From the IMG/VR virus record IMGVR_UViG_3300042863_000623, positions 1 to 43,468 of that record: a DNA stretch of 43,468 bases; one strand, written 5' to 3'. The notes below the pieces were generated by a model. That model searched no databases and was not told where the DNA came from. It saw only the letters and a list, made by a program, of their open reading frames with translations. This DNA comes from a virus. Positions 1-14,470 of the stretch are shown one piece after another. Position 1 is the stretch's first letter. Each line of letters opens with the position of its first letter. The position numbers and the translations under genes are program-made.

Positions 1-461
1 TCTTGAAACAAATTAAATTTAACTATATTAAGATTATACATTTTTTCTAGTTTTTCTAATACAGAAAATGTATAGAATGTGTCAATTGTGCAAATCCTAG
101 TGTCAGGGTGGTCGTGTAATAATGATCGATTTATTAATCCCGGTCCACGAGTTTTTCTTAAAAATTCAGGAGCTAGATGAGGTATCATAAATCTATCACG
201 CAGAGGTGTAGTAATGCCAAACAATATTAGATCATCAGAAGACATGTTAGTGCAATCTAACCATAACTGATCTAATTGAACAAAATTACTACACCCACTA
301 ATTGCTCGATTTGTTAAAGTTACATTAAGTTTTTTTGCTAGTACTGATGCAAAACTAACATTATATCTATTATATTCCATGTTTTCTAGTATAGCGTCGA
401 TCCGATCAGGAATATCCTGATCACCTGCTACAAAACTATCACCGTATGCCCATAGTTTCAT
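1..461 (-). CDS. SGNH/GDSL-hydrolase-like protein, C-terminus cut by window edge
   Basis: About 153 residues are visible before the left edge. The protein opens MKLWAYGDSFVAG, a block I motif of SGNH/GDSL hydrolases with the nucleophile serine expected in GDSF (residues 7-10). A second glycine-containing stretch, AISGCSNF, fits block II. The C-terminal part that should carry the catalytic Asp-His is outside the window. Members of this fold remove acetyl or other acyl groups from sugars or lipids; the substrate here is unknown. The start ATG overlaps the stop of the upstream radical SAM gene in an ATGA junction, so the two are translationally coupled. A second SGNH-like gene lies at 4057-4806, and both share the GDSF start but otherwise look divergent. 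An acyl esterase role is inferred from the motif only. Confidence 0.65.
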   Translation of the reverse strand, partial: MKLWAYGDSFVAGDQDIPDRIDAILENMEYNRYNVSFASVLAKKLNVTLTNRAISGCSNFVQLDQLWLDCTNMSSDDLILFGITTPLRDRFMIPHLAPEFLRKTRGPGLINRSLLHDHPDTRICTIDTFYTFSVLEKLEKMYNLNIVKFNLFQ

Positions 462-1591
462 TTGTTTAATAACTCCCATTCAGTAGGCCACAATTTTTCA
501 AATTTTAAAGTTTCATTTTTTAAATAGGTAGTTTCTAATGAATATATTTCTTCTACAAAACTTTTATTTGTTGATTTTGTTTTTAATGTGAGATTTTTCT
601 TAAAAGTCAATAACCACTCTAATCCGGGAGCATCTGGAAATAATTTTTCACATTGAGTGATTTCGTCGATTGCACGTTGCTTTAATTCAGGAGATAATTT
701 AAGAACACTAGCTGTAGAATTTTCTCCCGACGACTCTAATAAATTCCAAAATACATTTTTAATTTTATTTTCCTGTATAAACTCATAAAATTCAACAAGA
801 TTAAATGCAGAATATATCGAATATAAACTATGTGCATCTATATTATTGGATGTTTTTTCTTGTATGTAATTTATATTTTTTGCAAATAGATCCCAAGATG
901 CTCCTCGTCTTACATACTCGTATCTGTTGCCAACTGTTTCAAAACTAACTCCCCATTTTGTAGTTCGTTCATTTATTAATGTTTGTGCAATTGAGTTAGA
1001 TTCTAATGGTATTGCTAGATTGGATAAGATGTAAAAACTTCTATCATCTGTTATAGTATTAACTAATCGTAGATTTTGTTTTTGTAATAACGGTTCGCCG
1101 CCTAACATTAAGATATTTTCTATAGAGTCTATGTTTTTTTCAATCATGAGAAATAAACTATTTTCGTTTTCATCTTTGATTGTATTAATTTTTAAACCCT
1201 TCAACGTTGCCCACTTAGAACTAAAATATTCATAACAATAAGTACAAGATAAATTACAAGTGTTACTCCAGCGTAGATCTAATCTTCTCAATTTAAAAAA
1301 AGAATTATCAACAGGTCCGTAGTCAGTTTGAAATCTTTCCAAATCACTGTCTCTTTCTGATCTAGCATTTTGAGATTCTTGTTGTTTACATTGTCTGCAA
1401 GACTCATGCCATTTACCATCAAGAATATGCTGTCGAATATCGGTTGCAACCTTTCCGTTGATTAGTTCGTCAATTGTGTTTGTATGTAACGATCCTATAG
1501 AATTAGATGCCGAACAACAAGTCTTGACGTGGCCATCCGGTCCTAAGAAAATCTCAGTGAACGGCAAAGAACAAAATGTTTCTTTGTTCAT
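458..1591 (-). CDS. radical SAM protein with N-terminal cysteine cluster
   Basis: 377 residues. The radical SAM 4Fe-4S motif CxxxCxxC is C112, C116, C119 (TCNLSCTYCY), followed by the GGEP motif at about 164-167 that contacts S-adenosylmethionine. Before the core sits a cysteine cluster: C7 in FCSLPF, C25-C26 in KTCC and C65/C68 in CRQC. This resembles a SPASM/twitch auxiliary-cluster region but is placed N-terminally. Such enzymes make a 5'-deoxyadenosyl radical and act on peptides, sugars or cofactors; the substrate here is unknown. It overlaps its upstream neighbour (ATGA, four bases) and the downstream SGNH gene in the same way. The gene is visibly AT-rich. It is clearly related to the radical SAM genes at 2843, 4796 and 6133, so duplication within the cassette is likely. 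Confidence 0.88.
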   Translation of the reverse strand: MNKETFCSLPFTEIFLGPDGHVKTCCSASNSIGSLHTNTIDELINGKVATDIRQHILDGKWHESCRQCKQQESQNARSERDSDLERFQTDYGPVDNSFFKLRRLDLRWSNTCNLSCTYCYEYFSSKWATLKGLKINTIKDENENSLFLMIEKNIDSIENILMLGGEPLLQKQNLRLVNTITDDRSFYILSNLAIPLESNSIAQTLINERTTKWGVSFETVGNRYEYVRRGASWDLFAKNINYIQEKTSNNIDAHSLYSIYSAFNLVEFYEFIQENKIKNVFWNLLESSGENSTASVLKLSPELKQRAIDEITQCEKLFPDAPGLEWLLTFKKNLTLKTKSTNKSFVEEIYSLETTYLKNETLKFEKLWPTEWELLNK

Positions 1592-2850
1592 TTAGATACC
1601 TTTATTTCCCGCCAATTTCTAGATTTGTCGTCCATCTTTTCGTGTGTATAAATTCTATCTACTCGACTAAAGGTTCCGCATATGTTAGCACAATATGCCA
1701 TTTTGCCTTCGGCACAGCTAGACTTGGTCCATGAGTCCGTAAACACCCGATCCAGGTGATGACCTTCCATGATTTCTTGAAGGCTATGTTTGTTAAGGTC
1801 GAAGTGATCCCAGCCGTACTTTTCAATCTCGTAATGCAGTTGCAGGCTTTGGCTATCTGAATGTACGCCGTTTAAGTGTGTGCCCATGTAACAACAAGGG
1901 ATAACACGACCCTTTTGATCAACAAATATTTCTCTACCACCATTTCTAGTTTCGGCTTTACACTTGATGCTAGCACTATCTAATATAGAATTATCTTCTG
2001 AACGTAGCATGTCATATACGTTGGCAACACGTTCAGGATGATTGTTGTGTGTTAGTTTATTTTCTTTAAGACGTTTGTAATCATCTATACTAAATTTCCA
2101 AAATTGATCTTGTACTTGTCCTTGAGGATTTTCCAAATTTCTATTCTTTGGGTCTACAGGAGCATCGATCCAATAATCAAATTCACCCTCGCGAGTCATT
2201 GCACTCATGCGTACTAAACTTGTACCGTTATCAACGCCCAATGCTTTCTTAGGAACAAATGCATGAAATCCCATGTCTTTAGAAAGTTGTTTAGCTTCGT
2301 CGATTTGATGTTCGTTATGTTTAAAAATCAAGTAGTCCCATTCTGCACGACCACCTGCATCTATGAATGCTTTTGCATTTGCTATGAGCTTATCCCACTC
2401 TACGTTTCTTCTGTACAAGTGGTTTGTGTCTGCTAGTCCGTCGATACTAAATGTAATTTGCCATGACCAGTGATCTCTTAGTTTCTTTGAAAACAAAGTT
2501 CCCATCTTAGCCCAGAATTCTGGTTTACGCATTCCACCGTTCGTATTCATACGAATGACAGTTGTTGGACTTACTTGATCTATGTATTCGCAAATCTCGT
2601 ATAGATCTTTTGCCATGCCGGGGTCACCGTGAACACCGCAAAACAAAATTACTTCACACTTGTTAACAACTTCTGGTGGAAAATATTGTTTAAATTTTTC
2701 AATAGTAATTTGATCTATTTCTAAATCTGGACGAGTAAGTGGACTGTTAACATGAAATCGAGTACACATTGGACACGCAGCATTACACGCATTAGACAGC
2801 TCGATGTGTAATTGATCTAGTTGATCAAAATTAAAAAAGTTATTATTCAT
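1588..2850 (-). CDS. radical SAM protein with C-terminal SPASM-like cysteines
   Basis: 420 residues. The radical SAM motif lies very near the N-terminus, C22, C26, C29 (ACNAACPMCT), as in PqqE/AslB-type enzymes. A C-terminal cysteine set, C297, C319-C320 (VIPCCYMG), C379, C387 and C391, fits a SPASM domain holding one or two auxiliary iron-sulphur clusters. The usual GGEP is replaced by a diverged FCGVHGDPG at about 70-78. SPASM proteins modify ribosomal peptides, make cofactors or oxidise alcohols and sugars; which applies here is unknown. Its architecture differs from the other four radical SAM genes of the cassette, whose extra cysteines come before the core, so it may catalyse a different step. 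It overlaps the upstream gene by eight bases and the downstream gene by four. Confidence 0.88.
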   Translation of the reverse strand: MNNNFFNFDQLDQLHIELSNACNAACPMCTRFHVNSPLTRPDLEIDQITIEKFKQYFPPEVVNKCEVILFCGVHGDPGMAKDLYEICEYIDQVSPTTVIRMNTNGGMRKPEFWAKMGTLFSKKLRDHWSWQITFSIDGLADTNHLYRRNVEWDKLIANAKAFIDAGGRAEWDYLIFKHNEHQIDEAKQLSKDMGFHAFVPKKALGVDNGTSLVRMSAMTREGEFDYWIDAPVDPKNRNLENPQGQVQDQFWKFSIDDYKRLKENKLTHNNHPERVANVYDMLRSEDNSILDSASIKCKAETRNGGREIFVDQKGRVIPCCYMGTHLNGVHSDSQSLQLHYEIEKYGWDHFDLNKHSLQEIMEGHHLDRVFTDSWTKSSCAEGKMAYCANICGTFSRVDRIYTHEKMDDKSRNWREIKVSK

Positions 2851-4060
2851 AGTTTATTGTCTTTGCATATTCTGGATATACTGTTGCAAAATTTTGTCCT
2901 CGATATTCATCGTGTGCTTTTACATGTCGATTAAACTTTTCCCAATTTTCTGATTTAGCAGTGCCGTTAATAATAAAATTAATAATTCCTGGAATATGAT
3001 ACTCATACATATACCCATCAACATCTTCTTTAGGAATTGACTTGAGTATATCAACAACATAGGATTTTACGTCCGTTGGCAGTTGAGTTAAGTTATATTG
3101 TATTGGTCCGTGTACTAAATTAAGATAGGGTCCAAATTCTTTAAAATTTGTATTGTGTTCTTTTAATATTGCTGGCAATCCTGTAATGTTTATTGTACTC
3201 AAAGTAATACACCAACCTAGATAGATGTTACCTGTTCTATTACTAAGTTCTACTGCCTTTTTCATATTTTCTTTTACTTCGCTCCATTTAGCAGGATAAC
3301 GCATGTATTCGAATTGTTCTCCTATACCGTCGACACTGAATGATAAATGTACGTGTCTAAAATGTTTGAATATTTCAACTTTTTCAGCAGGCCACTGTGT
3401 GCCGTTGGTAGCATAGTGTACTTCGATATCTTTAGCATATCCTTTTTCAACAGCAACTTCTAAGATACGCCACATTTTTTTACTCATGAAAGGCTCACCG
3501 CCATAGAAGTCGAACTGTTTAATCGTTGCTAAGTTATTTTCTAGATCATCCCAAAACGGACTTTCGTCATCGTAGTGCTGATGATACTTTTTCATACTTT
3601 GAGCAAATAATTTATATGTAGAATATCTCTGGTTTTCATAAACATCGTAGTCCTCTTCCATCCAAGTACTACTAGAATGACTTCCGCAGGTTCTGCATTT
3701 TAAATTGCAGGTATTGCCCAAGTTTAATTCAACTTTGGCAAGACCTTTAAAGGGTGCATTTCCTTTACGTAACCAGTCAACGTATTTGTCGTTATCGCGC
3801 TGACGCTTACTTTTACGACCAGCGTCTTCTTCTTCGAAACACCAACTGCACTTATCGTGTCTCTTTCCGGAACCCAATGTATCTCTCACTTCCTGAAATG
3901 CTTTCTGATTAAAATTAATTGCAATAGGTTCAGCACCTAATGAATGTTTTAGATCTTGATCTCGATACATGCAACAAATTTTTGTTGTACCAGTATTATT
4001 TCCACTCATTGCGTGGTCAGCGTTTACACACCAGGTAGTTTTATTTTGTTCGTTTATCAT
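2843..4060 (-). CDS. radical SAM protein with N-terminal cysteine cluster
   Basis: 405 residues. The radical SAM motif is C118, C122, C125 (TCNLKCRTCG), with GGEP at 187-190 (FYGGEPF). An N-terminal cysteine set (C11, C29-C30 in KICCMY, C71 and C74 in CSWC) precedes the core, and is followed by a charged linker. After the core, SFSVDGIGEQFEYMRY fits the next strand of the partial TIM barrel. The reaction is unknown; the layout matches proteins annotated as twitch-domain radical SAM proteins in marine phages. It is coupled by ATGA overlap to the SGNH-like gene upstream. The shared WxxxxEYMR-type stretch and cysteine layout link it most closely to the proteins at 4796-6163 and 6133-7566. Confidence 0.9.
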   Translation of the reverse strand: MINEQNKTTWCVNADHAMSGNNTGTTKICCMYRDQDLKHSLGAEPIAINFNQKAFQEVRDTLGSGKRHDKCSWCFEEEDAGRKSKRQRDNDKYVDWLRKGNAPFKGLAKVELNLGNTCNLKCRTCGSHSSSTWMEEDYDVYENQRYSTYKLFAQSMKKYHQHYDDESPFWDDLENNLATIKQFDFYGGEPFMSKKMWRILEVAVEKGYAKDIEVHYATNGTQWPAEKVEIFKHFRHVHLSFSVDGIGEQFEYMRYPAKWSEVKENMKKAVELSNRTGNIYLGWCITLSTINITGLPAILKEHNTNFKEFGPYLNLVHGPIQYNLTQLPTDVKSYVVDILKSIPKEDVDGYMYEYHIPGIINFIINGTAKSENWEKFNRHVKAHDEYRGQNFATVYPEYAKTINYE

Positions 4061-4806
4061 AATTTTAATAGTTCTCTAATACAGTTTGGGTCGTTTGAAA
4101 CATTTTTATCTTTAAGGATATCTATCATAGTCGATGTATTATTTAAATTTTCATACATGCGATCGGCAACTAATTTATTATTTTTCCAATTCATGTGGCA
4201 ATATCGCATATCGCCTGAGTATATCATTTTTATAAATTGTTCTTGTTCTACAGGTGTTAATTGTTGTTGTTCAAATTGGATTAGGTCAATAGCATTATAT
4301 ATGCAAAATCCTGCTCTGCTTTCATAATTAATCAACGTACCGTTATCAAACGGCATGAAATTTATCAATTTTATGTTATTATCGCGACATAGTTGATTCA
4401 CATCATTAAATATTTTTTGATATACAAAAAGATCAAACTCTTCCGAGTTTACGATGGGGTATGTATCTAAAAGAATTTTTGCAACATCACGTTTTTCTTT
4501 GGCTATATTAGGAACGAATAATTTATTTACAGTAATATGGTGCATTGTTTCGTATTCTTTTTGGAGACTATGCCACCGATTGTGCTGACTATATACAAAT
4601 ACTATGTGTGAGTAGTCTTTGTAATGTTTTATAAAATTATTAAAACTCCACCAGATACTTGTTCCATGTAGTGCGTATAAAGTAGAATCAATATTTAATA
4701 AATCAGAAAGAGTTTTCGCCCATGGCTCTCCAGATATGGGTAGAGGAGATAGGTCTTTACTTGCAAAGCTATCTCCAAAAATTCCAAGATGTTTTTTAAT
4801 ATTCAT
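4057..4806 (-). CDS. SGNH/GDSL-hydrolase-like protein
   Basis: 249 residues. The N-terminus LGIFGDSFAS (GDSF at 11-14) is a block I motif with the candidate serine nucleophile at 13. ALHGTS supplies a block II glycine at about 48, and VYSQHNRW at 71-78 could be block III. Near the C-terminus, CHMNWKNNKLVADRM places a histidine at 204 where block V is expected, so a complete catalytic Ser-His pair is plausible. No signal peptide or membrane segment is visible, so it should act in the host cytoplasm. It sits between radical SAM genes, overlapping both (11 bases upstream, 4 downstream). By family it may be an esterase or deacetylase acting on sugars or lipids; that is inference. The incomplete block III means a non-catalytic member is possible. 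Confidence 0.65.
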   Translation of the reverse strand: MNIKKHLGIFGDSFASKDLSPLPISGEPWAKTLSDLLNIDSTLYALHGTSIWWSFNNFIKHYKDYSHIVFVYSQHNRWHSLQKEYETMHHITVNKLFVPNIAKEKRDVAKILLDTYPIVNSEEFDLFVYQKIFNDVNQLCRDNNIKLINFMPFDNGTLINYESRAGFCIYNAIDLIQFEQQQLTPVEQEQFIKMIYSGDMRYCHMNWKNNKLVADRMYENLNNTSTMIDILKDKNVSNDPNCIRELLKL

Positions 4807-6163
4807 TGTAAACTGTTTTGCACAATTCGTAAAAATCTTTATATTCTGGAAAGGTCTTTAATAAGTTAGTATTTAACCGCTTGTCGTTTTCTGAAAAGAA
4901 GCTGTAAAAGTCTCTGCGACCAGCACGAATTTTTTCTGCAGGAATTGTTTTTTCCTTCATATAATCTGTAACACGAAGCATTTTTTCATATTCAACATCT
5001 GTAAACCATTTTTTATTATCTACAATAAATTGTAGTTGACGTTCTTGATGTTTTATGAAATCGTCTGTAAGAATATTAATCATCCAGTGTGGTGGTTCTT
5101 TTAAGTAAGGGGTATCAAAGGAGACTGATTCAAATCCAAACTTCTCACGCCATTCAATCACCTTTTCTAATAGTTGTTGAAAGTTAGTTACACAAAGAAC
5201 ATTATATGTACACATTAAGTTTACAGTAGCACCTGCTTTGATTACTTCTATCATGTTGCGTTCCCAGTGATCACATTTAAGTCCTGTACGCATATACTCT
5301 GCTTGCTCGCCCCAACTATCAATGCTGGTAAAGAAACTAAACTTACGAATTTTCTTTTGACGAACCAGACTAGTTACTCTTTGAATAAGTCTGTCAACAC
5401 GATCGAATGTTACACCTAGATTACTGTTTAATGTAATTTCTAAGTGAGGGGCTGGTTCGTCTTCTAACAGATCAAAAAACTGCATTGCACCTGGATTCAT
5501 TAGAGGTTCACCGCCTGTGATGCGGAGTGTGTGTAGATCTTTACGCAGACTGGGCCACCATTTCCAGAATGCTTCAATGTAGGGATTTTCGTCTTTAGGA
5601 CCATAGTATGTTCCGTTGGTCATAAACTCAATGCCATACTGATTATAGGTTAGATCGTAATTACCATGCTTCTTGATTTCTTCTGTCCACATGGTGCTTG
5701 CTTGTGGGCAGCAATAACCGCAACGATAATTACAGCCATTACCAAAACTAACTTCTAGGTAACGAGGATTAACTGGTGCATCCCAGGGAAGCTCTGCTAG
5801 TTTTTCAATCAGCGGTTCGCTAAAATCACTTGAACTATGTATCATTCTGTCACTGATATGCTCGCCTGGTAGATCTTCAATATTCCAACAATATTGGCAT
5901 TCGTTAGGGCGACCTCCTTCTAACATAGTTTTACGCTGTTCTTTTTTCCATCTTGTATTGTGTAACGCACTAGGATCTGCTGCAATTTCATCTAAGCCAA
6001 TATGATGCGGGCGTGGATGATAGCAACTATGATTATCACCGGTGTGTAGATACAGAGTTTGGTGCAACCACTTCATTGCACAGAATCCCGAACCAACTTT
6101 GTTTAATCTATCTCTTACGTTTTTAATAAACGTTACTCTGTTTTCTTGCATTTTGCCTCGCAT
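4796..6163 (-). CDS. radical SAM protein with N-terminal cysteine cluster
   Basis: 455 residues. The radical SAM motif is C144, C148, C151 (GCNYRCGYCC), with GGEP at 217-220 (ITGGEPLM). An N-terminal region carries C28, C47 (SCYHPRPHH) and C89/C92 (ECQYCW), probably ligands of an auxiliary cluster. The SCYHPR and CxxCW blocks and the LHNTxxKKEQR segment are shared with the neighbouring protein at 6133-7566, so these two are paralogues. The start is uncertain: ATG at 6163 has GGA five bases upstream, while ATG at 6151 has GAGG four bases upstream. Both overlap the end of the upstream gene. The substrate is unknown. The conserved lysine/arginine-rich stretch between the cysteine sets could contact a phosphate or leader peptide, but this is a guess. 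Confidence 0.9.
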   Translation of the reverse strand: MRGKMQENRVTFIKNVRDRLNKVGSGFCAMKWLHQTLYLHTGDNHSCYHPRPHHIGLDEIAADPSALHNTRWKKEQRKTMLEGGRPNECQYCWNIEDLPGEHISDRMIHSSSDFSEPLIEKLAELPWDAPVNPRYLEVSFGNGCNYRCGYCCPQASTMWTEEIKKHGNYDLTYNQYGIEFMTNGTYYGPKDENPYIEAFWKWWPSLRKDLHTLRITGGEPLMNPGAMQFFDLLEDEPAPHLEITLNSNLGVTFDRVDRLIQRVTSLVRQKKIRKFSFFTSIDSWGEQAEYMRTGLKCDHWERNMIEVIKAGATVNLMCTYNVLCVTNFQQLLEKVIEWREKFGFESVSFDTPYLKEPPHWMINILTDDFIKHQERQLQFIVDNKKWFTDVEYEKMLRVTDYMKEKTIPAEKIRAGRRDFYSFFSENDKRLNTNLLKTFPEYKDFYELCKTVYNEY

Positions 6164-7566
6164 TCTTTCCAGAAAGTTTCTAACTCTGGAAATGTATTTA
6201 AAAAATTTGTGTCTTGACGCTTGTCTTGCTGGCTAAAAAATAAATAAAAATTCTCTTTAGCTAATTCACTGTTAAATCCAGTGTCTGATTTAATCCAATC
6301 GATCAATCTCTGTACTTTGCTAATTTCAAAGTCGCTAAATCCTTTAAACTCGTTCCATTTGGTTTCTGGATTATATTTCATAAACTCAATTGTGCGTTCT
6401 AACTCAGAAACTAAATCAGGTAATAATTTAGGATTCAAAAAATCGGGATCAATTAACTGAGGCACATCAAACCAAACCAACTGACGACCACTGTTAAATT
6501 GTTTGCGTAATTTTAATATATTTTCCATGTATTCGTAAAATCGTGTGTACGACAACGCATTAAAAGTGATAATAAATGTCAAACTATGTTTATCGCTGTT
6601 TTGGAGATAATCAGTTACATTGGTGTATAGCATGTCAAAGTTCATGCCGTTACGTATATATTCAGCCTGTTTGCCCCACGAGTCTAAACTGCAAAACAAC
6701 ATAAAGTGGTCAATTGCATTTTTTTCAGTGATTTTCTTCAATGATATCATGAACTTATTCCACTGATTTCCAGGCGGGCAGCAATTTGACGTTATAGACA
6801 GGTTTAAGGCAGGATGTGGGTGCTCGTATACATAATCAAACATTTTAAAAGTATTTTTATCCATCAACGGTTCGCCACCAGTCATACGGAACGTTTGTAG
6901 CTTTGGATAAACTACAGGCATCCATTTCCAAAAGGCTTTTAGATAAGGATTGTCAGGACCGTTGTCGATATTGAGTTTTTTTACCCATGTAATGTCATTG
7001 TGCCAGCGATCAGATAAAGTGATAGCACCGCTTTGTTCTATATCCTGTTGCCATGCTGTGCTTAGGTGCGGACTACAATAGCTGCATTTAAAATTGCAGG
7101 CCTGATTGAAGTTTACTTCAACATATTGAGGTATTGCATCACCTTCAAATCCCAATGCCTTGGCTTCCTCAATTAGTCCGTCTTCGTAAACGTCCTTACT
7201 GCGATATGCGCGATCGCTGAGTTGATTGCCACTGTCTTCGATTTGCCAACAAAATTCACATTCTTTAGGACGAGTCCCTTCTAGCATTAATTTACGTTGT
7301 TCTTTTTTATACTTGGTATTATGCAACGCACTTACATCGATCACTATTTCATCTAATGGAATTTGATGTGCTCTAGGATGATAACAACTATGAGTCTTTC
7401 CTGTGGGAATATGTATACTAACGTTATACCATTTGGCAAGACAGAAACTAGGACTAACCTTGTTTAGTTCTTTATACACATATTCAGCGTCGGCAAGATA
7501 ACGAGATTCATATCTACCATTAATCTCTTTAAGTTCATTGCCTTTTATATTACGATTATATTCCAC
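6133..7566 (-). CDS. radical SAM protein with N-terminal cysteine cluster, GTG start
   Basis: 477 residues from a GTG at 7566. The radical SAM motif CNFKCSYC is at 157-164 in this numbering, followed by MTGGEPLM. The preceding region has SFCLAKW, SCYHPRAH and ECEFCW, matching the paralogue at 4796-6163. The frame stays open upstream to 7755, but that part overlaps the conserved end of the glycosyltransferase gene in another frame and has no counterpart in the paralogue. GTG 7566 has AGGA eight bases upstream (7575-7578) and overlaps the upstream stop by 11 bases, typical for this operon. ATG 7596 is the alternative (487 residues) but has no ribosome binding site. The reaction is unknown. Confidence is high for the family and moderate for the start. 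Confidence 0.85.
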   Translation of the reverse strand: MEYNRNIKGNELKEINGRYESRYLADAEYVYKELNKVSPSFCLAKWYNVSIHIPTGKTHSCYHPRAHQIPLDEIVIDVSALHNTKYKKEQRKLMLEGTRPKECEFCWQIEDSGNQLSDRAYRSKDVYEDGLIEEAKALGFEGDAIPQYVEVNFNQACNFKCSYCSPHLSTAWQQDIEQSGAITLSDRWHNDITWVKKLNIDNGPDNPYLKAFWKWMPVVYPKLQTFRMTGGEPLMDKNTFKMFDYVYEHPHPALNLSITSNCCPPGNQWNKFMISLKKITEKNAIDHFMLFCSLDSWGKQAEYIRNGMNFDMLYTNVTDYLQNSDKHSLTFIITFNALSYTRFYEYMENILKLRKQFNSGRQLVWFDVPQLIDPDFLNPKLLPDLVSELERTIEFMKYNPETKWNEFKGFSDFEISKVQRLIDWIKSDTGFNSELAKENFYLFFSQQDKRQDTNFLNTFPELETFWKECEAKCKKTE

Positions 7567-9859
7567 TAAACTGTTCCTGTAACCATTCAAAGTCATTGAT
7601 TTTATTAAGAGCGTCTGGATTATTTTTATTAGTTTCGCCGTAATGTCTACCCGCCTGTGCCCCGGCAATTGCATATGCCCCAAACGGTTGTTCAACACCA
7701 GCTGAACACCATATGTCCAATCGTAGTTTAGTTTCTTCTTCGTACTGCCTTTCAATAATACGACTAGCTAGTTTACAACATTCTCTAAAGGCCGATCTCC
7801 ATGTTGCAAACTCATCAGTATTGAAAGAGTTAATATTAGACACAGTATTCATGGCTTTAAACTTGTCAGATATACTTGTTGTCATATCCGAAGTATTAAC
7901 ATTCATATTCAATGTTAGGTGTCTTGGTAATAATTTAACACCACCGTTACCGTATTCTAAATTGTTAATAGGATTTTTACTTTGCCACACATGAACACAA
8001 TCTATATCATAGCTTGACATCACTGTATCAAAACTAAAACTGTCTTCAATTATTGCATCGCCATCGACTATCCATATCATATCAGTATCACATATACTTG
8101 CTGCTTTAATATGTGCATTGTGAATTCCTTTCACGCCACGCACTCGTTTGGCCCTAGGACACATATCTATTAATTTTTTATAGTTCTCGTCAGCGTTGGG
8201 CTCGTTATAAGAAATAAAAACAACATCATATAAACGATGTTTAGATACTAGTCGATCATGTTCTTTTTTCTCAATTAAAAATCTATGTTTAAATTCTCGT
8301 TGTCCTATAATTTTATCTTTAGACAATAATACTAGTCCGTTGGTATGAATTTCTTTACCGTTAAACAGATGCTTAAATGTATGATTTTCTTTTCTATCAT
8401 GATCATATTTTCCATCATTAGGATCAAAATATAGATCAAATACAGATTCATCTACAATATCTATCTCAGGCCATATCCCCCAAAACATCGGCTGTGTTTC
8501 ATTTTTTAAAATGTCTGTGTAGTTGTCGTATGACGAAAGAACATATCTATTATATCTATACCGACTAACAACAGTTGTATGTTCTTTTTTGTCTATTAAA
8601 TATCTACGGTTAAATTCTTTTTGCGAAATAACTTTTTCTTTTGAGAATAAAACTAGCCCGCACAAATATGTTTCTTTGTCATTGCATAGATTTTTAAACA
8701 CGTGATTTTCTTTTCTATCATGATCATACTTTCCATCGTTGGGATCAAAATATAAATCAAAAATTGTTTCATCTATAATGTTTATTTCGGGCCATATACC
8801 CCAGAATAAAGGTTGAGTTTCTGTTTCTATAATTTGTTTATATTCTTCGTAACTGGAAATATTGTATCGATTATATCTATACCTACTAACTATGCGGGTA
8901 TGTTCTTTTTTGTCAATTAAATATTTTCTATCAAATTCTTTCTTAGAAATAATTTTAGATTTAGAAAATAAAACAACTCCGCTTAGATATGATTCTTTAT
9001 CATTGCATAAATTTTTAAATACATGATTTTCTTGCCTATCATAATCTAATGCACCATTGTTAGGATCAAGATAAAAATCAAATATTGTATCGTCAATAAT
9101 TTCTATACTAGGCCACTGACACCAAAACATTTGTTGTTTTTCATTGTCAATAATCTCTAAATAATCAGCATAAGAATTAATTTTATAAACTGGGTATTGA
9201 TATTTGCTGACAACTTTGTTGTGCTCTTTTTTATCTACAGCATACTGTTTATCAAACTCTCGATTTGATAAAGGTTTATATTTGCTGCAAAGGATTACTC
9301 CGCTGAGATAAGATTCAACACTATTGCAGAGATTTTTAAATACATGATTTTCTCTGCGGTCATAACTATTATGATGACTAAAATATATGTCAAAAATTGA
9401 TTTGTCAGTTACAGTAACTTCTGGCCATACTAGCCAAAACATGTCGTCGGTTATGTGTTGGTATTCGTTGAATGTATTAGGACTGTATGTTTTATATTGT
9501 TTTGGAATACTAGCAACAATATCAATTTCTTTTTTAGCTGTAAAAAATCTATGATGAAATTCACGCTGAGAAATCGTCAACGATTTAGGAAACAAACAAA
9601 TACCATCATAGTGTTCTCCGTTTTTAAAAACGTGAACATACATGTCATCCCACTTAGTGGCTTTATAATCTAATAAATTAAATTCTGTAAGATTTATATC
9701 GTCCCAGATAACCCAGAACATTTTTGTAAAGGATTTAGATTGAATTTCTTCGTAAGATTTTATGTTTGTTAATTTTTGAGCAAGTGGATACCTAGACTTT
9801 ATTGTTGACCAGTCTTTGTCATTTCCGTTGCTTGCTGAAACATAAAAAATATCATACAT
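7556..9859 (-). CDS. tandem-repeat protein with C-terminal GT-A glycosyltransferase-like domain
   Basis: 767 residues. About residues 1-30 look like the first strand of a GT-A fold. Five tandem units follow, each near 105 residues, with anchors HVFKN at about 75, 171, 276, 381 and 487. Each unit carries MFWxxWPE, then IFDxYFDPNDG, ENHVFKNL, a GxVLFSK strand and DKKEH. The units around 276-487 are nearly identical in places, suggesting recent duplication. From about residue 544 the protein matches the glycosyltransferase-like gene next door: VVFISYNEPNAD, AKRVRGVKG, and a metal-binding DxD-type WIVDGDA near 598. It probably transfers a sugar in the host cytoplasm, with the repeats acting as a scaffold or acceptor binder; this is inference. 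It overlaps the upstream gene by eight bases. Confidence 0.75.
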   Translation of the reverse strand: MYDIFYVSASNGNDKDWSTIKSRYPLAQKLTNIKSYEEIQSKSFTKMFWVIWDDINLTEFNLLDYKATKWDDMYVHVFKNGEHYDGICLFPKSLTISQREFHHRFFTAKKEIDIVASIPKQYKTYSPNTFNEYQHITDDMFWLVWPEVTVTDKSIFDIYFSHHNSYDRRENHVFKNLCNSVESYLSGVILCSKYKPLSNREFDKQYAVDKKEHNKVVSKYQYPVYKINSYADYLEIIDNEKQQMFWCQWPSIEIIDDTIFDFYLDPNNGALDYDRQENHVFKNLCNDKESYLSGVVLFSKSKIISKKEFDRKYLIDKKEHTRIVSRYRYNRYNISSYEEYKQIIETETQPLFWGIWPEINIIDETIFDLYFDPNDGKYDHDRKENHVFKNLCNDKETYLCGLVLFSKEKVISQKEFNRRYLIDKKEHTTVVSRYRYNRYVLSSYDNYTDILKNETQPMFWGIWPEIDIVDESVFDLYFDPNDGKYDHDRKENHTFKHLFNGKEIHTNGLVLLSKDKIIGQREFKHRFLIEKKEHDRLVSKHRLYDVVFISYNEPNADENYKKLIDMCPRAKRVRGVKGIHNAHIKAASICDTDMIWIVDGDAIIEDSFSFDTVMSSYDIDCVHVWQSKNPINNLEYGNGGVKLLPRHLTLNMNVNTSDMTTSISDKFKAMNTVSNINSFNTDEFATWRSAFRECCKLASRIIERQYEEETKLRLDIWCSAGVEQPFGAYAIAGAQAGRHYGETNKNNPDALNKINDFEWLQEQFSGI
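7575..7578 (-). promoter_or_regulatory. ribosome binding site deciding the GTG start at 7566
   Basis: AGGA on the minus strand, eight bases before GTG 7566 and inside the end of the upstream glycosyltransferase gene. The competing ATG at 7596 is preceded by an AT-rich stretch without a purine-rich site. This favours the GTG start. Confidence 0.45.
8240..9720 (-). repeat. five coding tandem repeats of about 315 bases
   Basis: The DNA shows recurring blocks such as those near 8390, 8705, 9020, 9340 and, more diverged, 9630, giving a period of roughly 315 bases in frame. The units centred on 8390 and 8705 are the closest to each other. They encode the MFWxxWPE / ENHVFKNL repeat of the glycosyltransferase-like protein. 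The repeats are coding and long, with no spacers, so this is not a CRISPR array. Confidence 0.85.
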
Positions 9860-10769
9860 TCGTAGGCACCGGCATCTTAAAATAAGTGTCGTTGAGATTC
9901 ATGGTTTCATTATACAAATCTAAAGTAAATTTGCTCTGCTGTGCATCAAGAAAAGGCCAATCTAATCCCAGACTCATTTTTATTTTATCGCCTAAATTTT
10001 TAATCTCATCTATTAATCCGTCACCGTTTACTTCTTGATAAGGTTTTCCATATTGATTCCATATATCTCTGAGTATTTCAAAATCTCGAACATCAACATA
10101 ATTCCATTCAGTGCAGTTGGCCATCCATGTTCCTAGTCTAGCACCATAGACTGCATAGATTCCATTTTCTTCGTGAGCACCCACAGTTGACCACATGCGC
10201 AGTCTGTGAATATTATGCCACCATATGCGTTCTTTAATTTCCATCGGAGGAACTTTAACGCCGTCAAGCAAGGTCATTTTAACACCTTCTCGAAATCCTG
10301 CTCTCCATGCTTGAAATGATGATCCTGTAATAACACTTTCACTGAACGTTAATGGAAAATTTCTATATCCATCTTCCCAACAAAAATCTACTTGGCCGCG
10401 ATCACTGTTGGAATTTTCATGTGTCTTCATGTTCAAGACAAAATCCTTACGCCAGATTTTTAATCCACCATTGCCATATCGAAGACCGTTAATTGCATTA
10501 CGACCACACCAACCATAGACCTGTATCTTGGGATCACTCATGTCAAGGTCGATGTTAAAAAATCTAGGATCTACAATGTTGTCAGCATCAACTGTGATAA
10601 ACCAATCTGTTTCACTGGCTTCTGCTGCGGCTTTATGGGCATGGTCAGATCCTTTGACTCCGTGAATGCGTTTAGCCCACGGAACTTTGTTACACAAATC
10701 AGCATAATGCAGATCTGCATTAGGCTCATCGTAACTTAAAAAAACTACATCAAACTCGATTACTTTCAT
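9852..10769 (-). CDS. GT-A fold glycosyltransferase-like protein
   Basis: 305 residues. The N-terminal strand FDVVFLSYDEPNAD, the block AKRIHGVKGSDHAH and the metal-binding DxD motif ITVDADNIVDP (DAD at 61-63) fit a GT-A nucleotide-sugar transferase fold. RYGNGGLKIWRKDFVLNM and SFQAWRAGFREGVKM follow and are shared with the C-terminal domain of the larger protein at 7556-9859, so one probably arose from the other by duplication. No membrane segment or signal peptide is seen. It likely transfers a sugar from a nucleotide donor; donor and acceptor are unknown. Its start overlaps the upstream stop in ATGA. I recall similar proteins as common in T4-like cyanophages, but I cannot verify this here. 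Confidence 0.72.
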   Translation of the reverse strand: MKVIEFDVVFLSYDEPNADLHYADLCNKVPWAKRIHGVKGSDHAHKAAAEASETDWFITVDADNIVDPRFFNIDLDMSDPKIQVYGWCGRNAINGLRYGNGGLKIWRKDFVLNMKTHENSNSDRGQVDFCWEDGYRNFPLTFSESVITGSSFQAWRAGFREGVKMTLLDGVKVPPMEIKERIWWHNIHRLRMWSTVGAHEENGIYAVYGARLGTWMANCTEWNYVDVRDFEILRDIWNQYGKPYQEVNGDGLIDEIKNLGDKIKMSLGLDWPFLDAQQSKFTLDLYNETMNLNDTYFKMPVPTNV

Positions 10770-11383
10770 TTATATTCGATCACATAATTCTTAAATAGGC
10801 GTCTTGTATACACACTGAATCTATCATATTCAATGTTTTTAATTGTTACATTATGCCCAACTAGTTCATTTAGTTTAACAGAAAACATCTGAAAAATCAA
10901 GTTGGGATCGTTGTAATCGGTGATTAAAAAATCCATATCGGTAGAACCATCCCAAATAAATTGTCTTGTTCCGATGCTGCCTTTGTGTTTTTTAGTTCCA
11001 CCGTATTCTGTAGACAGTTGAATTTTCAAATATTTGCTTTTCGAACTGTATGTTAGATGTATGTCCGATTTAAATTCTTCCAAATATTTGATGTCAGGAA
11101 TTCTATGCAATACATCATCTAATTTGTTTAGTGTCTTTTTTTCAGCTATCTCTAACTGTCCTGACTCTACATTTATTTGACAGTTGTGTATCTGTGTTTC
11201 AGCTGTGATTATAGATTCAGCAATTTCTTGTGATATCTGCACTGTATGTTTTTGATCTGCAAAAGCATGATCTGGTCCTACGCTGATAACTCGACCCGTA
11301 TTTGGATCAAACACCGCTACATATTGTATAATCGGTGGCTTGTATTCTTTCAGCCATTTATCAAAATCTTCTATAGTTTCCAT
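10766..11383 (-). CDS. unknown protein, possibly fibre-related
   Basis: 205 residues from ATG 11383, chosen because GGAG lies eight bases upstream; an ATG at 11410 would add nine residues but lies further into the previous gene. I do not recognise a family. The N-terminal half, with QYVAVFDPNTGRVISVGP followed by an ISQEIAESI helix-like stretch and a VESGQLEI strand, recalls small modules found at the ends of phage fibre proteins. The C-terminal half contains WDGSTDMDFLITDYND and a basic end. It lies between glycosyltransferase genes and overlaps both (ATGA downstream). A structural or adaptor role is possible but not shown. Confidence 0.7.
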   Translation of the reverse strand: METIEDFDKWLKEYKPPIIQYVAVFDPNTGRVISVGPDHAFADQKHTVQISQEIAESIITAETQIHNCQINVESGQLEIAEKKTLNKLDDVLHRIPDIKYLEEFKSDIHLTYSSKSKYLKIQLSTEYGGTKKHKGSIGTRQFIWDGSTDMDFLITDYNDPNLIFQMFSVKLNELVGHNVTIKNIEYDRFSVYTRRLFKNYVIEYK

Positions 11384-12210
11384 GCTTTGGTCTCCAAGAT
11401 ATGTATGCACTCATCTGTGATTAAATTTTTCTCTACGTAATGCACAATATCATTCTGTTGAAAATTTCCTATCTTTAGTCTAGCATCTGCATTGAGATAA
11501 AATCCCACATGATCGCTCCAAGTGTCAGCCGGCCACGGCCAATTTTGCAGCATTGGTTTCATATGCACTACTCGAGGAAATGGTAAATCGTATGCGACGT
11601 CATCAGTTATATCTAGTATTTTAGCAGCCAGTGCGAATGCTTCATCTGTGCCAACGACCTTGGGTCTATGTTCATTTAGAAACTGATTAGTGAATTCATT
11701 GGGATTTTTTATAATCTGTCGGCCTAAATCAAAAAATTCTTGGCATAGCACAGATCCTTTAGAGAAAAAAGTCCACATAGAGTATAAATCTGGCAGGCAG
11801 TTTCTGTCAAAGGTTTTTCTATATGTGCGATCTGTGATTGTTTCGCCCCTATAGGTATAGACTTGGTTGGCCACATATAATTCACTGTTAGCAATAAAAT
11901 AATCAATCCAATGACTGTAATCTCGTAGGAATAACATGTCAGCGTCAAGGCATACTGTGTGATCAAACGGAGACAGTTGATCCATCCACGATCTACCATC
12001 CCAATATTTCTCTTGGTCCCATTCTATCACTGTGTCAAACACCCACGGACTTGATAATTTTTCAAGCGATTTTTTGTTGTCAATTACCAATGCCACCTTG
12101 TCATACCCTGGTTTTTGTGTGGTTTTTATACTCAGAGCTAGAGCATAGGCGCACTTGAGATAATCAATGTCATCATTGTGTGCTACAAATAACAGATACC
12201 CAAAGTTCAT
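11371..12210 (-). CDS. glycosyltransferase-like protein, GT-A fold with DxD
   Basis: 279 residues. The first strand YLLFVAHNDDIDYLKCAYAL is followed by the DxD metal-binding motif VCLDADMLFL (DAD at 89-91). VGTDEAFALA (near 186-195) and VHMKP (near 215) match the later acceptor and histidine elements seen in GT8-like retaining transferases. The family assignment is by motif, not alignment. It should use a nucleotide sugar; acceptor unknown. Its ATG overlaps the stop of the next glycosyltransferase-like gene upstream (ATGA). Together with the genes at 7556, 9852 and 12207 it makes four glycosyltransferase-like proteins in one operon, enough for a short glycan rather than a single decoration. 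Confidence 0.75.
   Translation of the reverse strand: MNFGYLLFVAHNDDIDYLKCAYALALSIKTTQKPGYDKVALVIDNKKSLEKLSSPWVFDTVIEWDQEKYWDGRSWMDQLSPFDHTVCLDADMLFLRDYSHWIDYFIANSELYVANQVYTYRGETITDRTYRKTFDRNCLPDLYSMWTFFSKGSVLCQEFFDLGRQIIKNPNEFTNQFLNEHRPKVVGTDEAFALAAKILDITDDVAYDLPFPRVVHMKPMLQNWPWPADTWSDHVGFYLNADARLKIGNFQQNDIVHYVEKNLITDECIHILETKAWKL
11392..11395 (-). promoter_or_regulatory. ribosome binding site deciding the start at 11383
   Basis: GGAG on the minus strand with an eight-base spacer to ATG 11383. The upstream in-frame ATG at 11410 has no such site, so the shorter protein is preferred. Confidence 0.5.
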
Positions 12211-13067
12211 ATCAACTCCATTAACTGTTGTTGATGTCTCAATATACTTTGTTTATTCATCACATGTATATCAACTCCAGTCACTGATGCTGCACAATAT
12301 GTGGCATCCAATCGATGATCGATCAAGAATGTCAATTTGTCCTTGTCGACGGCTGTGAGTATGTCTTTGTCCATCACTGATAACACAGGCGGCAGCGTTG
12401 GTGTGTTCATGTTTTCAAATCCATCTAGCATATGCTTGGCAACACTAAACGCTATGTCATTTCTATATTGTCTATGATCAAATCGAAAGACATCAGCATA
12501 GTGCTTGTAATTTTCTTTGATTAAATTCACCGTATCAAAAAACAGTTTGGACTGTGGATTTTTCGTGAACATCACTGTGGTTGCCCAATACATTTTACAG
12601 CTGGTTTCACAGACGTATCTATCAAGGTATCCTAATCTATCTTCGCTATATATGTCGTTGATCGAATCTCCTATCATAACGTCAGCTTCTACATTCCAAT
12701 ATTTGTTTAGATTATCACTGAATATTAAAAAATCGCTGTCTATCAGCAGTGTTCTATCATAGGGTGTAAGGTCCCATACAGAATGTCTGTTGGTATTGCA
12801 AAACGGTATTTTTTTATTAATTACACCGTCGTGCAATCCACGTTGATTATCCGTAACAGGCTTATCAACAATTATAACATGTTCGAATACTGTTTCAACC
12901 TGCTGCCATGTGCGGGATTCGATCAACCATTCCTTGGTGCTAAGGTCTGTGACCAATGACACTGGAACATTAAGATGTTTTTTTGCAAGCCCGCCACTGA
13001 TCACTGCTAATAATCCGTAATCTACTTCACGATTATTATGTGCGAAAATTAAAATGCCATTGGTCAT
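12207..13067 (-). CDS. glycosyltransferase-like protein with DxD motif
   Basis: 286 residues. The layout is like its downstream neighbour: a first strand ILIFAHNNREVDYGLLA, a second strand VPVSLVTD, then the DxD-like RTLLIDSDFLIF (DSD at 110-112) at the end of a strand, all expected for a GT-A fold. The C-terminal part is less conserved by eye, so it could be a nucleotide-sugar-binding relative without activity. No transmembrane or signal region. It begins in a TAATG overlap with the 115-residue gene, so its translation is coupled to the first gene after the late promoter. Substrate unknown. Confidence 0.68.
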   Translation of the reverse strand: MTNGILIFAHNNREVDYGLLAVISGGLAKKHLNVPVSLVTDLSTKEWLIESRTWQQVETVFEHVIIVDKPVTDNQRGLHDGVINKKIPFCNTNRHSVWDLTPYDRTLLIDSDFLIFSDNLNKYWNVEADVMIGDSINDIYSEDRLGYLDRYVCETSCKMYWATTVMFTKNPQSKLFFDTVNLIKENYKHYADVFRFDHRQYRNDIAFSVAKHMLDGFENMNTPTLPPVLSVMDKDILTAVDKDKLTFLIDHRLDATYCAASVTGVDIHVMNKQSILRHQQQLMELI

Positions 13068-13414
13068 TATGCGATAAGTTTTTCTACAGATCTAGATTTC
13101 TTGATCTTGTCAAATTCTTGAAAGTATTCATTGGTGACTTCGAAATATCTGCTGAAGATTTCATCACGAAAAGCTTCTAGATTTTCTATCAAAATGGGAT
13201 TTTCGTTGCTGTCCAACAGCACTGTTCCAGAAACTCTGCCTTTGCTACACAGCATTTCAACAAATGTCAACAGATTTCTATCAATGGCAAACAGCCCGCC
13301 AGAGAAACCATACATCAGTTTGGCAGCTGTGCGTTCTTTGAGAATTTTTTTGTGGATTGAAAAAGTCTGCTGATAATTGGCGAAATCCAATACAGCTTTC
13401 AACTGTTCGTTCAT
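13067..13414 (-). CDS. small unknown protein, first gene of the accessory operon
   Basis: 115 residues, charged, no cysteine cluster apart from one CSKG, no signal peptide or membrane segment. I do not recognise the family. The sequence alternates predicted helix (LKAVLDFANYQQ, KKILKERTAAKL) with a short strand region (GTVLLDSNENPILIENL) and ends in a helical, basic tail. It is the first gene behind a perfect T4-type late promoter and has the strongest ribosome binding site seen here (AAGGAGA, five bases before the ATG). This suggests a protein made in quantity late in infection. It could be a small virion protein or a chaperone for the preceding fibre genes; both are guesses. Confidence 0.8.
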   Translation of the reverse strand: MNEQLKAVLDFANYQQTFSIHKKILKERTAAKLMYGFSGGLFAIDRNLLTFVEMLCSKGRVSGTVLLDSNENPILIENLEAFRDEIFSRYFEVTNEYFQEFDKIKKSRSVEKLIA

Positions 13415-13419
13415 GAGTT

Positions 13420-13424
13420 CTCCT
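13420..13424 (-). promoter_or_regulatory. strong ribosome binding site for the gene at 13067-13414
   Basis: AGGAG inside AAGGAGAA on the minus strand, five bases before ATG 13414. It is the best Shine-Dalgarno match I saw in the window and sits in the leader made from the TATAAATA promoter. Confidence 0.7.
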
Positions 13425-13442
13425 TGATAAACTGCGTAGTTT

Positions 13443-13450
13443 ATTTATAG
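13443..13450 (-). promoter_or_regulatory. T4-type late promoter, TATAAATA
   Basis: The minus strand reads TATAAATA, identical to the consensus -10 element of T4 late promoters used by the gp55 sigma factor. It lies 28 bases upstream of ATG 13414, in a 59-base gap. It should drive the whole left-hand accessory cassette. By eye no -35 element is needed or seen, as expected for this class. Confidence 0.75.
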
Positions 13451-13473
13451 AGAATTATGTGGTCTGAAATAAA

Positions 13474-14454
13474 TTACGAGCCAGTGACAGCACCAATAGA
13501 AACTGTGGGTTGAGTCACAGTGAATACTGCGCTGCTAGGCACCATAATACCTGTAGCAAACAGTGTAGAAACACTTACTGTAAGTGTTCCATCTATGTCA
13601 TCACCTGGGGGTGGGTTAGGACTACCCCCTGCACCCGAGTCGGTGTATCCGTCTGTGAACAATATTCGTATTTCACCGCTGGCCGCGGTGCCTCCGCTGT
13701 TTGAAGGCACATCAACACACCTAGCCTGTAGACGATAGTTGTTAGAACCATAGGGACTGCTGGCTGTGGCTGTGTAAAATGTCTGGAAAGAGTTAGTGGT
13801 TCTATACCAGTTTGTACCGTCGTTAGGGGAAGTTACAAGACTTGCGTTAGGCGCTGCGCCTCCAAAACTCTGTGTGCCTGCGGCACTGAGAAGACTAGTC
13901 CAACTAGTATTTTGAGCCGTGCCAAGCACCCCACCGGTTCGGCTCGCACTGATCCTAATTTTACCGCCACTGTTGAACCAATATCTAGCATCATTGGCAT
14001 TGGACCAATAAAATTGTATGACGCATTCGCACTGGCTAACCCATGCTCCGGTTCTGCTTGATGTGGTCACTGCTGTGGTACCCGATTCACTAGTGGCTAT
14101 TGTGAATCTATTAGCTGTGATATTATCGGCCCAATCATCATATTGCTTTTGCGGTACGTCGAGGGTTCCGATATCGGGAGTAAATGAACTGGAATATCGA
14201 ATAGTATTACCGTCTGCGACCACAGCGGTAACTGGGTTAGATCCGTTAATGTGCTTGTAGGCATTGATAATGTCATATCTCAGATTTGCCCACTCGTTGA
14301 TAGTGACTTTAGTGCCTTCTGTTACAGCCGTAGATTGGATTCTGATTTGTTGACCGTATCCAGAGTTTCCACTGCCGGAACCTAACACAGCAATGATTTT
14401 GTTTCTTATTGAATTGTAGTCTGCTTGGACTATTACACTGTTAACAGCTGGCAT
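13474..14454 (-). CDS. probable virion structural protein, paralogue of the next gene upstream
   Basis: 326 residues, rich in Ser, Thr, Gly and Asn. It shares with the protein at 14471-15373 an N-terminal helical part (QADYNSIRNKI against ASQYVAIQDKA; WANLRYDIINAYKH against WDLLRFDIINIRLH), then GGKIRI followed by a SFG stretch, a YQTFYxxxxSSPYxxNNYRL segment, a proline hinge NPPPGDD, and a last beta part (GTLTVSVSTL). This layout suits a capsid- or tail-exposed protein with a helical base, a central beta domain and a small Ig-like end, but I know no function. The product is inferred to be structural from composition and from its place after the fibre genes. It is separated from the 300-residue gene by only 16 bases. 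Confidence 0.8.
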   Translation of the reverse strand: MPAVNSVIVQADYNSIRNKIIAVLGSGSGNSGYGQQIRIQSTAVTEGTKVTINEWANLRYDIINAYKHINGSNPVTAVVADGNTIRYSSSFTPDIGTLDVPQKQYDDWADNITANRFTIATSESGTTAVTTSSRTGAWVSQCECVIQFYWSNANDARYWFNSGGKIRISASRTGGVLGTAQNTSWTSLLSAAGTQSFGGAAPNASLVTSPNDGTNWYRTTNSFQTFYTATASSPYGSNNYRLQARCVDVPSNSGGTAASGEIRILFTDGYTDSGAGGSPNPPPGDDIDGTLTVSVSTLFATGIMVPSSAVFTVTQPTVSIGAVTGS

Positions 14455-14470
14455 GAGAATATTTAAGAGA

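Follow-up and report, generated by a model that had tools for sequence, protein, structure and literature searches.

The stretch of DNA analyzed here, called the window, is the full 43,468 nucleotides of IMG/VR virus record IMGVR_UViG_3300042863_000623, a 43-kb virus record that is a fragment. It carries a minus-strand cassette of about 13.4 kb (positions 3-13414) in which the gene u115 and twelve further open reading frames (ORFs) follow one another without gaps and encode five radical SAM proteins, four glycosyltransferase-like proteins, two weakly supported SGNH-like proteins and two proteins of unknown function. The best explanation of this cassette, which we judge to stand about an even chance of being right, is a late pathway that builds and decorates a glycan on the tail tip. 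A tail-protein glycan is favored because of the apparent late timing, the fixed site behind the tail-fiber genes, the lack of a membrane-like stretch in the cassette proteins and the sugar-decorating enzymes of the right arms.

Organization of the cassette

Following a 59-base gap, the genes are ordered as u115, gt286, gt279, u214, gt305, rep767, r1, r2, sgnhB, r3, r4, r5 and sgnhA, the last of which runs off the edge of the window. Each of the twelve junctions between u115 and sgnhA is an overlap of 1 to 200 bases. An earlier note made from this sequence had described the radical SAM genes as overlapping and had placed the cassette right after tail-fiber genes. That location is seen in the window, where the minus-strand tail-fiber series tf705, tf604, tf700, tf600, tfY300 and tfX326 lies upstream of the cassette, with baseplate genes (gp25-like and hub) ahead of it. 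The features are as follows:

13474-15373, minus strand: tfX326 and tfY300, paralogous tail-fiber-type genes directly upstream, candidate acceptors
13400-13485, minus strand: leader, with the late promoter TATAAATA (13442-13449) in a predicted hairpin that pairs with the u115 Shine-Dalgarno sequence
13067-13414, minus strand: u115, conserved first gene, function unknown
12207-13067, minus strand: gt286, GT8-like glycosyltransferase, D-x-D conserved
11371-12210, minus strand: gt279, GT8-like glycosyltransferase, D-x-D conserved
10766-11410, minus strand: u214, function unknown, modeled beta strands in the second half
9852-10769, minus strand: gt305, GT-A-family protein with conserved D-x-D-N and no Pfam match
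7556-9859, minus strand: rep767, tandem 107-residue modules and a C-terminal GT-A-type domain (residues 541-681); junction of the apparent arm exchange
6133-7755, minus strand: r1, twitch radical SAM protein; 200-base overlap with rep767, the real start probably lying further in
4796-6163, minus strand: r2, twitch radical SAM protein, 36% identical to r1
4057-4806, minus strand: sgnhB, SGNH-like protein (weak)
2843-4060, minus strand: r3, twitch radical SAM protein
1588-2850, minus strand: r4, radical SAM protein with C-terminal SPASM-like cysteines
458-1591, minus strand: r5, twitch radical SAM protein
3-479, minus strand: sgnhA, SGNH-like protein (weak), truncated by the window edge; full length of 247 residues in a relative (L007)

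A fixed core behind the tail-fiber genes

Relatives were collected from IMG/VR as the best 80 of 316 stretches found with r2 as the seed and the best 80 of 507 found with gt305, giving 157 loci on 135 contigs. Because only the best-scoring stretches were kept, the co-occurrence figures describe near relatives; they were counted in loci with enough flank, which were 58 of the 80 r2-seeded loci (9 kb upstream) and 45 of the 80 gt305-seeded loci (7 kb downstream). Some contigs are included twice in the counts of core order, tail-fiber neighbors and right arms.

The order gt286-gt279-x-gt305 was found in all 135 loci that contained both ends, and a tfX/tfY paralogue was the gene preceding u115 in 120 of the 123 loci showing an upstream ORF. 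All of u115, gt286, gt279 and gt305 were present in 54/58 r2-seeded loci (25/29 non-redundant), the exceptions being L063, L069, L073 and L055, which has the three transferases and no recognized u115. Behind gt305, a homologue of r1-r5 was found in 45/45 gt305-seeded loci (17/17 non-redundant). The co-occurrence of the radical SAM proteins with the glycosyltransferases, a check that the earlier note had set, therefore holds among near relatives. The same layout was found, with a gt305 identity of 43-52%, in six phage contigs filed under metagenome-assembled genomes (L166-L170 and L172). These were filed under Neomarinimicrobiota, Rickettsiales, Rhodobacteraceae and Gammaproteobacteria, and are phage-like over the stretch examined (tail genes and cassette).

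Two loci, L062 and L063, have related modules without the core in the flank examined, and these also adjoin virion structural genes. Genes for QueD-like 6-pyruvoyl-tetrahydropterin synthases, two in tandem in L062 and one in L063, were observed there beside the r1-r4 module and the virion structural genes.

An exchangeable right arm

The 37 loci with a gt305 at least 94% identical to that of the window carried nine right-arm signatures; three of the nine are variants of the window's own arm, so that seven different arms are represented. Even where the left parts are nearly the same, the right part of the cassette (radical SAM, SGNH and sugar-modifying enzymes) has been exchanged. Up to the start of rep767, two loci, L009 and L096, match the L022/L091 type at 100% identity; from there on they match the window at 99-100%. 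They are apparent recombinants, in which the tail and glycosyltransferase core of one phage are joined to the right arm of the window with the junction inside rep767. The stretch of identity shared at the crossover covers one 500-base window in L009 and about two in L096, and the junctions look like recombination but may instead reflect chimeric assembly at this stretch.

An inventory of the right arms over 163 loci gave 969 genes, of which 262, in 117 clusters, had no match in the window. When 20 right-arm representatives were scanned against protein families, eight matched above the cut-off, six only below it and six not at all. Those above the cut-off were a UDP-sugar dehydrogenase (L151), an NAD epimerase and a 2-oxoglutarate (2OG) oxygenase (L117), a methyltransferase (L012), a DUF6492 protein (L069), two B12-binding radical SAM proteins (L069 and L151) and a carbamoyltransferase (L066), which lies beside a core-less module; no gt305 was found in the flank examined of L066 or L069. 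The matches below the cut-off include a sulfotransferase (L170) and a GT9 protein (L013), and a hexapeptide transferase and a DUF6071 protein were found in the right arm of L166.

A late-promoter motif within a predicted RNA lock

The motif TATAAATA, which the earlier note had read as a late promoter, occurs once in the window, inside the 59-bp gap that precedes u115. By itself this 8-mer is no proof, since chance alone would give 4.73 copies over the window's full length. The comparison with relatives does support it. The exact 8-mer was found in 20 of the 51 distinct u115 leaders, and its core, TAAATA, at positions -45 to -22 of u115 in 42 of 48 distinct leaders. The same test gave zero for gt286 (0/54), gt279 (0/55), u214 (0/47), gt305 (0/54), r1 (0/50), r3 (0/51) and r4 (0/39), 1/60 for rep767, and 25/30, 8/27 and 4/51 for tf600, tfX and tfY. 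TAAATA was also observed at -45 to -22 of r2 in 18/67 distinct leaders, which is perhaps an internal late promoter or a coincidence. Sigma-70-type promoters and intrinsic terminators showed no excess over shuffled sequence.

Folding was analyzed in 45 distinct u115 leaders, 41 of them with a recognizable Shine-Dalgarno sequence, and the pairing and swap comparisons drew on 40 leaders with the motif, 21 of them non-redundant. Against shuffled sequences, the 41 leaders had a mean z of -3.69, compared with -0.44 to 0.54 for seven other genes. The predicted pairing of the Shine-Dalgarno sequence was 0.82 in the read-through RNA and 0.36 when the RNA started just after the motif (20 leaders). The left and right halves of the structure co-vary: when they were swapped among the 21 non-redundant leaders, the mean pairing gain fell from -13.9 kcal/mol for native halves to -6.6 kcal/mol for swapped ones; swaps equal to the native half made up 6% on average in the u115 leaders versus 47-62% in six control genes. 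The window's own leader can be folded into the two stems but taken singly gives a weak signal (z -1.21), and it has little structure if transcription starts after the motif. These results are consistent with a predicted leader of the T4 type, in which the late promoter would lie inside the hairpin and the ribosome site would be paired in the read-through RNA only.

In T4, late mRNAs of genes e, soc, 49 and I-TevI lack the 5′ arm of a structure that hides the ribosome binding site, according to the parts of the accounts consulted (PMC3014915, PMC2988022). The u115 leader is like these in that the late promoter is placed inside the structure that hides the ribosome site. It differs in that it heads a multi-gene enzyme cassette and in that its lock is inferred from folding and co-variation, not measured.

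Radical SAM proteins

Four of the five radical SAM proteins described in the earlier note scored above the 170-bit cut-off of the NF033640 model (r1, 302 bits; r2, 296; r3, 299; r5, 210), and CX3CX2C did not vary among the aligned relatives of any of the five (36, 37, 20, 21 and 9 sequences, the window's own counted). The remaining protein, r4, fails that cut-off with 48 bits and matches Radical_SAM (E 1.6e-5) and SPASM (E 5e-4), each below the Pfam cut-off; it resembles radical SAM/SPASM proteins, a type different from the NF033640 members. The r1 protein is itself below the Pfam Radical_SAM cut-off (16 bits) though far above that of NF033640. In the aligned relatives, N-terminal auxiliary cysteines are kept in r1, r2, r3 and r5, and C-terminal ones in r4. 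The five are distant paralogues, with pairwise identities of 19-36% where the BLAST alignment exceeded 13 residues, and r1-r2 and r3-r4 recur as neighbor pairs in relatives. Matches of r1-r5 to peptide-maturase models were weak and at the superfamily level only.

A search of 50,697 phage records with r1, r3, r5, gt286, gt279, gt305 and u214 gave no relative of r1 (E 1e-5), of gt305 or gt286 (E 1e-5) or of gt279 (E 1e-3), and a single chance-level match of u214 at E 10. The matches of r3 and r5 were to Vibrio phages only (11 and 40 records).

Two other arrays were observed. The jumbo phage record of Vibrio phage K566 (L183, OZ196521, 150-180 kb) has five NF033640-matching genes, two of them above the cut-off, and four of the five are interleaved with genes that by eye resemble glycosyltransferase genes. 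A 281-kb relative has a second large array (L163 and L164; G001:226000-262000) with 13 ORFs containing CX3CX2C on both strands, together with an NAD epimerase, a 2OG oxygenase, a B12-region radical SAM protein, a glutathione-peroxidase-like protein and an arginine-deiminase-like protein, the last matched below the cut-off.

Glycosyltransferase-like and SGNH-like proteins

The four glycosyltransferases of the earlier note appear to be two GT8-like proteins, recognized through a joint profile, and two GT-A-family proteins, recognized through a model and homology, with no Pfam support from single sequences. Neither gt279 nor gt286 has a Pfam match by itself. Their joint profile matches glycogenins (best E 7.5e-7, profile positions 12-106 of 270), D91 being invariant and D89 nearly invariant in the alignment, and when aligned jointly they appear to be GT8-like relatives of glycogenin-type enzymes. 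The gt305 protein and the GT-A-type domain of rep767 are 35% identical over 210 aligned positions (E 5e-32), and on this homology gt305 is a predicted GT-A-fold protein. The only actinobacterial neighborhood of a gt305 relative that was scanned, in Nocardia (L179), has a GT4-like gene before the relative, matched below the cut-off, and a GT2-family gene above the cut-off two genes after it.

Residues 541-681 of rep767 gave a GT-A-type fold model (pLDDT 85.7), and according to this model the C-terminus is a GT-A-type domain with D-x-D. Foldseek matched it to chondroitin polymerase, SunS, ArnC and GalNAc transferases (E 7e-5 to 1e-3; low TM on the long model). In VIA, where the matches listed span Z 9.3-11.7, B4GALNT1 had Z 11.7 (rmsd 2.6, 141 aligned), and ThuS, SunS and WrtF had Z 9.6-10.7. 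The number of rep767 modules differs between phages, from 0 to 7 by motif count with partial ORFs included, and by eye the modules resemble decayed copies of the N-terminal half of a GT-A domain without D-x-D.

No Pfam or PHROG match was found for u115. For the u214 model, Foldseek gave nothing at E 0.001 or better and a single chain reached Z 5 or more, and no fold is claimed for it. The two SGNH proteins of the earlier note fared less well. A G-D-S-F block can be seen by eye in both, the Asp-x-x-His block is non-canonical, sgnhA matches Lipase_GDSL below the cut-off (E 0.03), and sgnhB has no Lipase_GDSL match and no family model above the cut-off. A crude Kyte-Doolittle scan detected no 19-residue membrane-like stretch in any cassette protein (no mean above 1.6), and no exporter family was matched among the cassette proteins scanned.

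CHxS-tail proteins in other jumbo phages

At the site syntenic to the window's cassette in Agrobacterium phage Atu_ph07 and Sinorhizobium phage Phosso, gp170 and its homologue (38-46% identity, depending on the method) lie between radical SAM genes and end in (CHxS)3. A scan of IMG/VR for this pattern gave 73 DNA matches, 55 within an ORF and 18 outside. The C-terminal set consists of 43 proteins, two from L184 and L185 and the others from 41 IMG/VR loci, among which L193 corresponds to Atu_ph07. They are 172-306 residues long with 35 non-redundant bodies, and 40/43 end exactly in CHxSCHxSCHx[SN]R[GSA]RR. Proteins with a C-terminal (CHxS)3-R-[GSA]-RR are located as follows:

L185, 25062-25952
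L184, 24315-25235
L259, 10001-10561
41 IMG/VR loci among L186-L258

A Radical_SAM match was found within 8 kb in all 27 CHxS records tested, a non-random pick of the 41 loci, the figure being a raw frequency. In 23 of the 27 a match above the Pfam cut-off was present somewhere in the record, and in 24 a match started 1.2-2.6 kb upstream. A crude motif scan found no radical SAM near 12/14 loci whose CHxS match was not a tail. In Burkholderia phages FLC6 and SURPRISE13, a virion structural gene is followed by a cupin, a radical SAM protein or Fe-S oxidoreductase, a CHxS-type protein and more radical SAM genes; among these two and FLC8, the tail sequence was read directly in FLC6 only. In the isolates examined, the CHxS genes lie behind virion structural or tail-fiber genes. 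A cluster rich in virion proteins spans CDS 170-215 of Atu_ph07 in the parts of its description consulted (PMC6102473), and CDS 170 should be the CHxS protein, because the numbering agrees with the record at the baseplate genes gp181 and gp182. The CHxS protein is thus a candidate for a virion protein matured by radical SAM enzymes.

Homology of the CHxS proteins to tfX/tfY was not accepted, since there was no hmmsearch match and hhalign gave a probability of 29% (E 6e-4 over 56 columns). The His-Xaa-Ser (Hxs) system, for which we take TIGR03977 to be the HxsC model and TIGR03976 the partner model, was rejected as well; TIGR03977 was above the cut-off in 0/6 records and TIGR03976 matched in 0/6. 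None of six CHxS motif strings was found in the full texts searched.

Discussion

The earlier note had proposed a pathway that makes or decorates a glycan, or modifies a peptide or virion protein, during assembly. The late motif, the co-occurrence of the genes and the sugar enzymes favor the glycan part of its proposal. Under such a pathway, translation of u115 from mRNA reading through from upstream would be blocked by the leader hairpin. Late in infection the transferases would build a short glycan on a tail protein, for which tfX/tfY, with about 24% serine plus threonine, may be the nearest candidates. The right-arm enzymes would then alter the glycan by radical epimerization, dehydration or methylation, or by acylation or other groups. 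With a new right arm on an unchanged core, the tail tip would become chemically different, similar to serotype switching.

Several points weigh against a tail-tip glycan. No acceptor was identified, and tfX/tfY are without an obvious signature, no cysteine-rich one being seen. Soluble GT8 enzymes can act on lipopolysaccharide (LPS) equally well. IspD-type nucleotidyltransferases, which are of like fold, fit the rep767 domain equally well (VIA Z up to 11.0), the SGNH assignments of sgnhA and sgnhB are weak, and 12/20 scanned right-arm proteins had no Pfam match or only one below the cut-off. In one locus, L171, the core is missing although a rep767-type protein and radical SAM genes are present. 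Lastly, 3-4 radical SAM genes are annotated at the syntenic site in Atu_ph07 and Phosso, and no resemblance to gt305, the GT8 pair or u214 was found among 22 neighboring proteins tested there, so the radical SAM proteins of those phages need no such glycan.

The alternative that survives best, although we regard it as somewhat unlikely, is that the cassette remodels the host envelope (the LPS O-chain) and blocks superinfection or keeps progeny from sticking to debris. This role has been proposed for the GT8 genes of a similar pelagimyophage locus in the consulted parts of that paper (PMC7029224), the sugar-nucleotide and decorating enzymes of the right arms would suit O-chains too, and in Vibrio phage K566 one gene of the radical SAM cluster matches an LPS galactosyltransferase model, far below the cut-off. 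However, late-only expression, as suggested by the promoter motif and the predicted RNA lock, would be late for superinfection exclusion, and the fixed position behind the tail-fiber genes also weighs against this role.

It is rather improbable that the radical SAM enzymes act on a virion protein itself, altering its peptide backbone or side chains, with the glycosyltransferases as a separate decoration. The (CHxS)3-tail proteins argue for this, being flanked by radical SAM genes in Burkholderia phage FLC6 as well as at the syntenic site in Atu_ph07 and Phosso, as do the place of CDS 170, presumably the CHxS gene, at the edge of the published virion-protein cluster and the absence of core-transferase homologues among the 22 Atu_ph07 and Phosso proteins (Burkholderia not covered). 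However, the CHxS tail, looked for as a DNA pattern of the (CH-x6-CH-x6) type, was found in 0/15 records, 11 of them IMG/VR relatives of the window and some of them fragments. In addition, right arms of the window type mix radical SAM with sugar enzymes, and between the two groups the radical SAM proteins show just a faint similarity (E 0.001-0.008 to r1).

It is very unlikely that the cassette makes a ribosomal peptide or a small molecule with no link to virions, or modifies DNA or RNA bases. The weak matches to peptide-maturase models point that way, as does the second array of the 281-kb relative with its epimerase, oxygenase and B12-type enzymes, and the QueD-like genes beside two related modules would suit deazapurine chemistry. 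Against it, no exporter was matched, and since all cassette junctions overlap there is no room for a separate precursor gene; a hidden one between the cassette genes was ruled out on this ground. A loose set of auxiliary metabolic genes without a joint function, which the high variability of the right arms might suggest, is the least credible reading given the invariant core order, the fixed site, the recurring r1-r2 and r3-r4 pairs and the co-occurrence.

Returning to the tail-tip glycan pathway, the claim of the earlier note that the cassette is an undescribed system was too strong. The parts of the literature consulted already describe many radical SAM genes, and GT8 genes together with cassettes of radical SAM proteins, in the vicinity of phage tail genes. 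Pelagimyophages carry GT8 genes and radical SAM cassettes in a tail-fiber host-recognition cluster (PMC7029224), which resembles the cassette described here as a hypervariable region beside tail fibers with glycosyltransferases (GT8 being the commonest there) and radical SAM cassettes. The consulted parts of that account mention no fixed core order, no RNA-locked late promoter and no arm exchange. Unlike the pelagimyophages, the phage of the window is nearest to jumbo myophages by two markers: its hub protein is nearest to PA5oct and Atu_ph07, and the best matches of its g236 protein include Phosso, Atu_ph07, CBB and Serratia phage BF. The T4-like environmental genome TARA_ERS488813_N000010 is alike in having many radical SAM genes in one phage genome, 12 in all; it differs in that it was published from the viewpoint of Fe-S metabolism, with no tail-linked cassette mentioned in the text consulted (PMC5332604). 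The cultured giant Aeromonas phage 332-Vera has eight radical SAM genes within a structural and tail-fiber cluster. It differs in belonging to the Chimallinviridae, and the term "glycosyl" is absent from the text of its description, by which alone it was compared (PMC12390700). For the combination of a fixed core, an exchangeable arm cassette and an RNA lock, no published description was found in the literature consulted.

To our knowledge, no radical SAM arm accompanies the virion glycosylation of mycobacteriophages. The glycans there are on capsid and tail tube subunits (Freeman 2023, as cited in the part of PMC12619734 consulted). The same source lists four putative glycosyltransferases among the gene groups shared by 25 mostly freshwater jumbo "moraphages" (PMC12619734).

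At a broader level, we tentatively suggest, as a possibility short of an even chance, that large phages mature their own tail tips with exchangeable sets of radical SAM enzymes. The enzymes would act on a phage-built glycan in the lineage of the window, where an arm swap would amount to serotype switching, and on a conserved (CHxS)3RGRR virion-protein tail in Atu_ph07-, Phosso- and FLC6-like phages. If this is true, phage-host recognition would have a general and unrecognized layer in the maturation of virions by radical SAM enzymes. The present analysis turns scattered published remarks on abundant phage radical SAM genes into a defined system, whose core is fixed, whose arm can be exchanged, and which has a strict predicted late switch and a set place beside the tail fibers. 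The tail proteins of such phages are predicted to carry modifications that are invisible to sequence-based host-range prediction, and the cultured phages identified here are ones in which radical SAM maturation of virions is directly testable.

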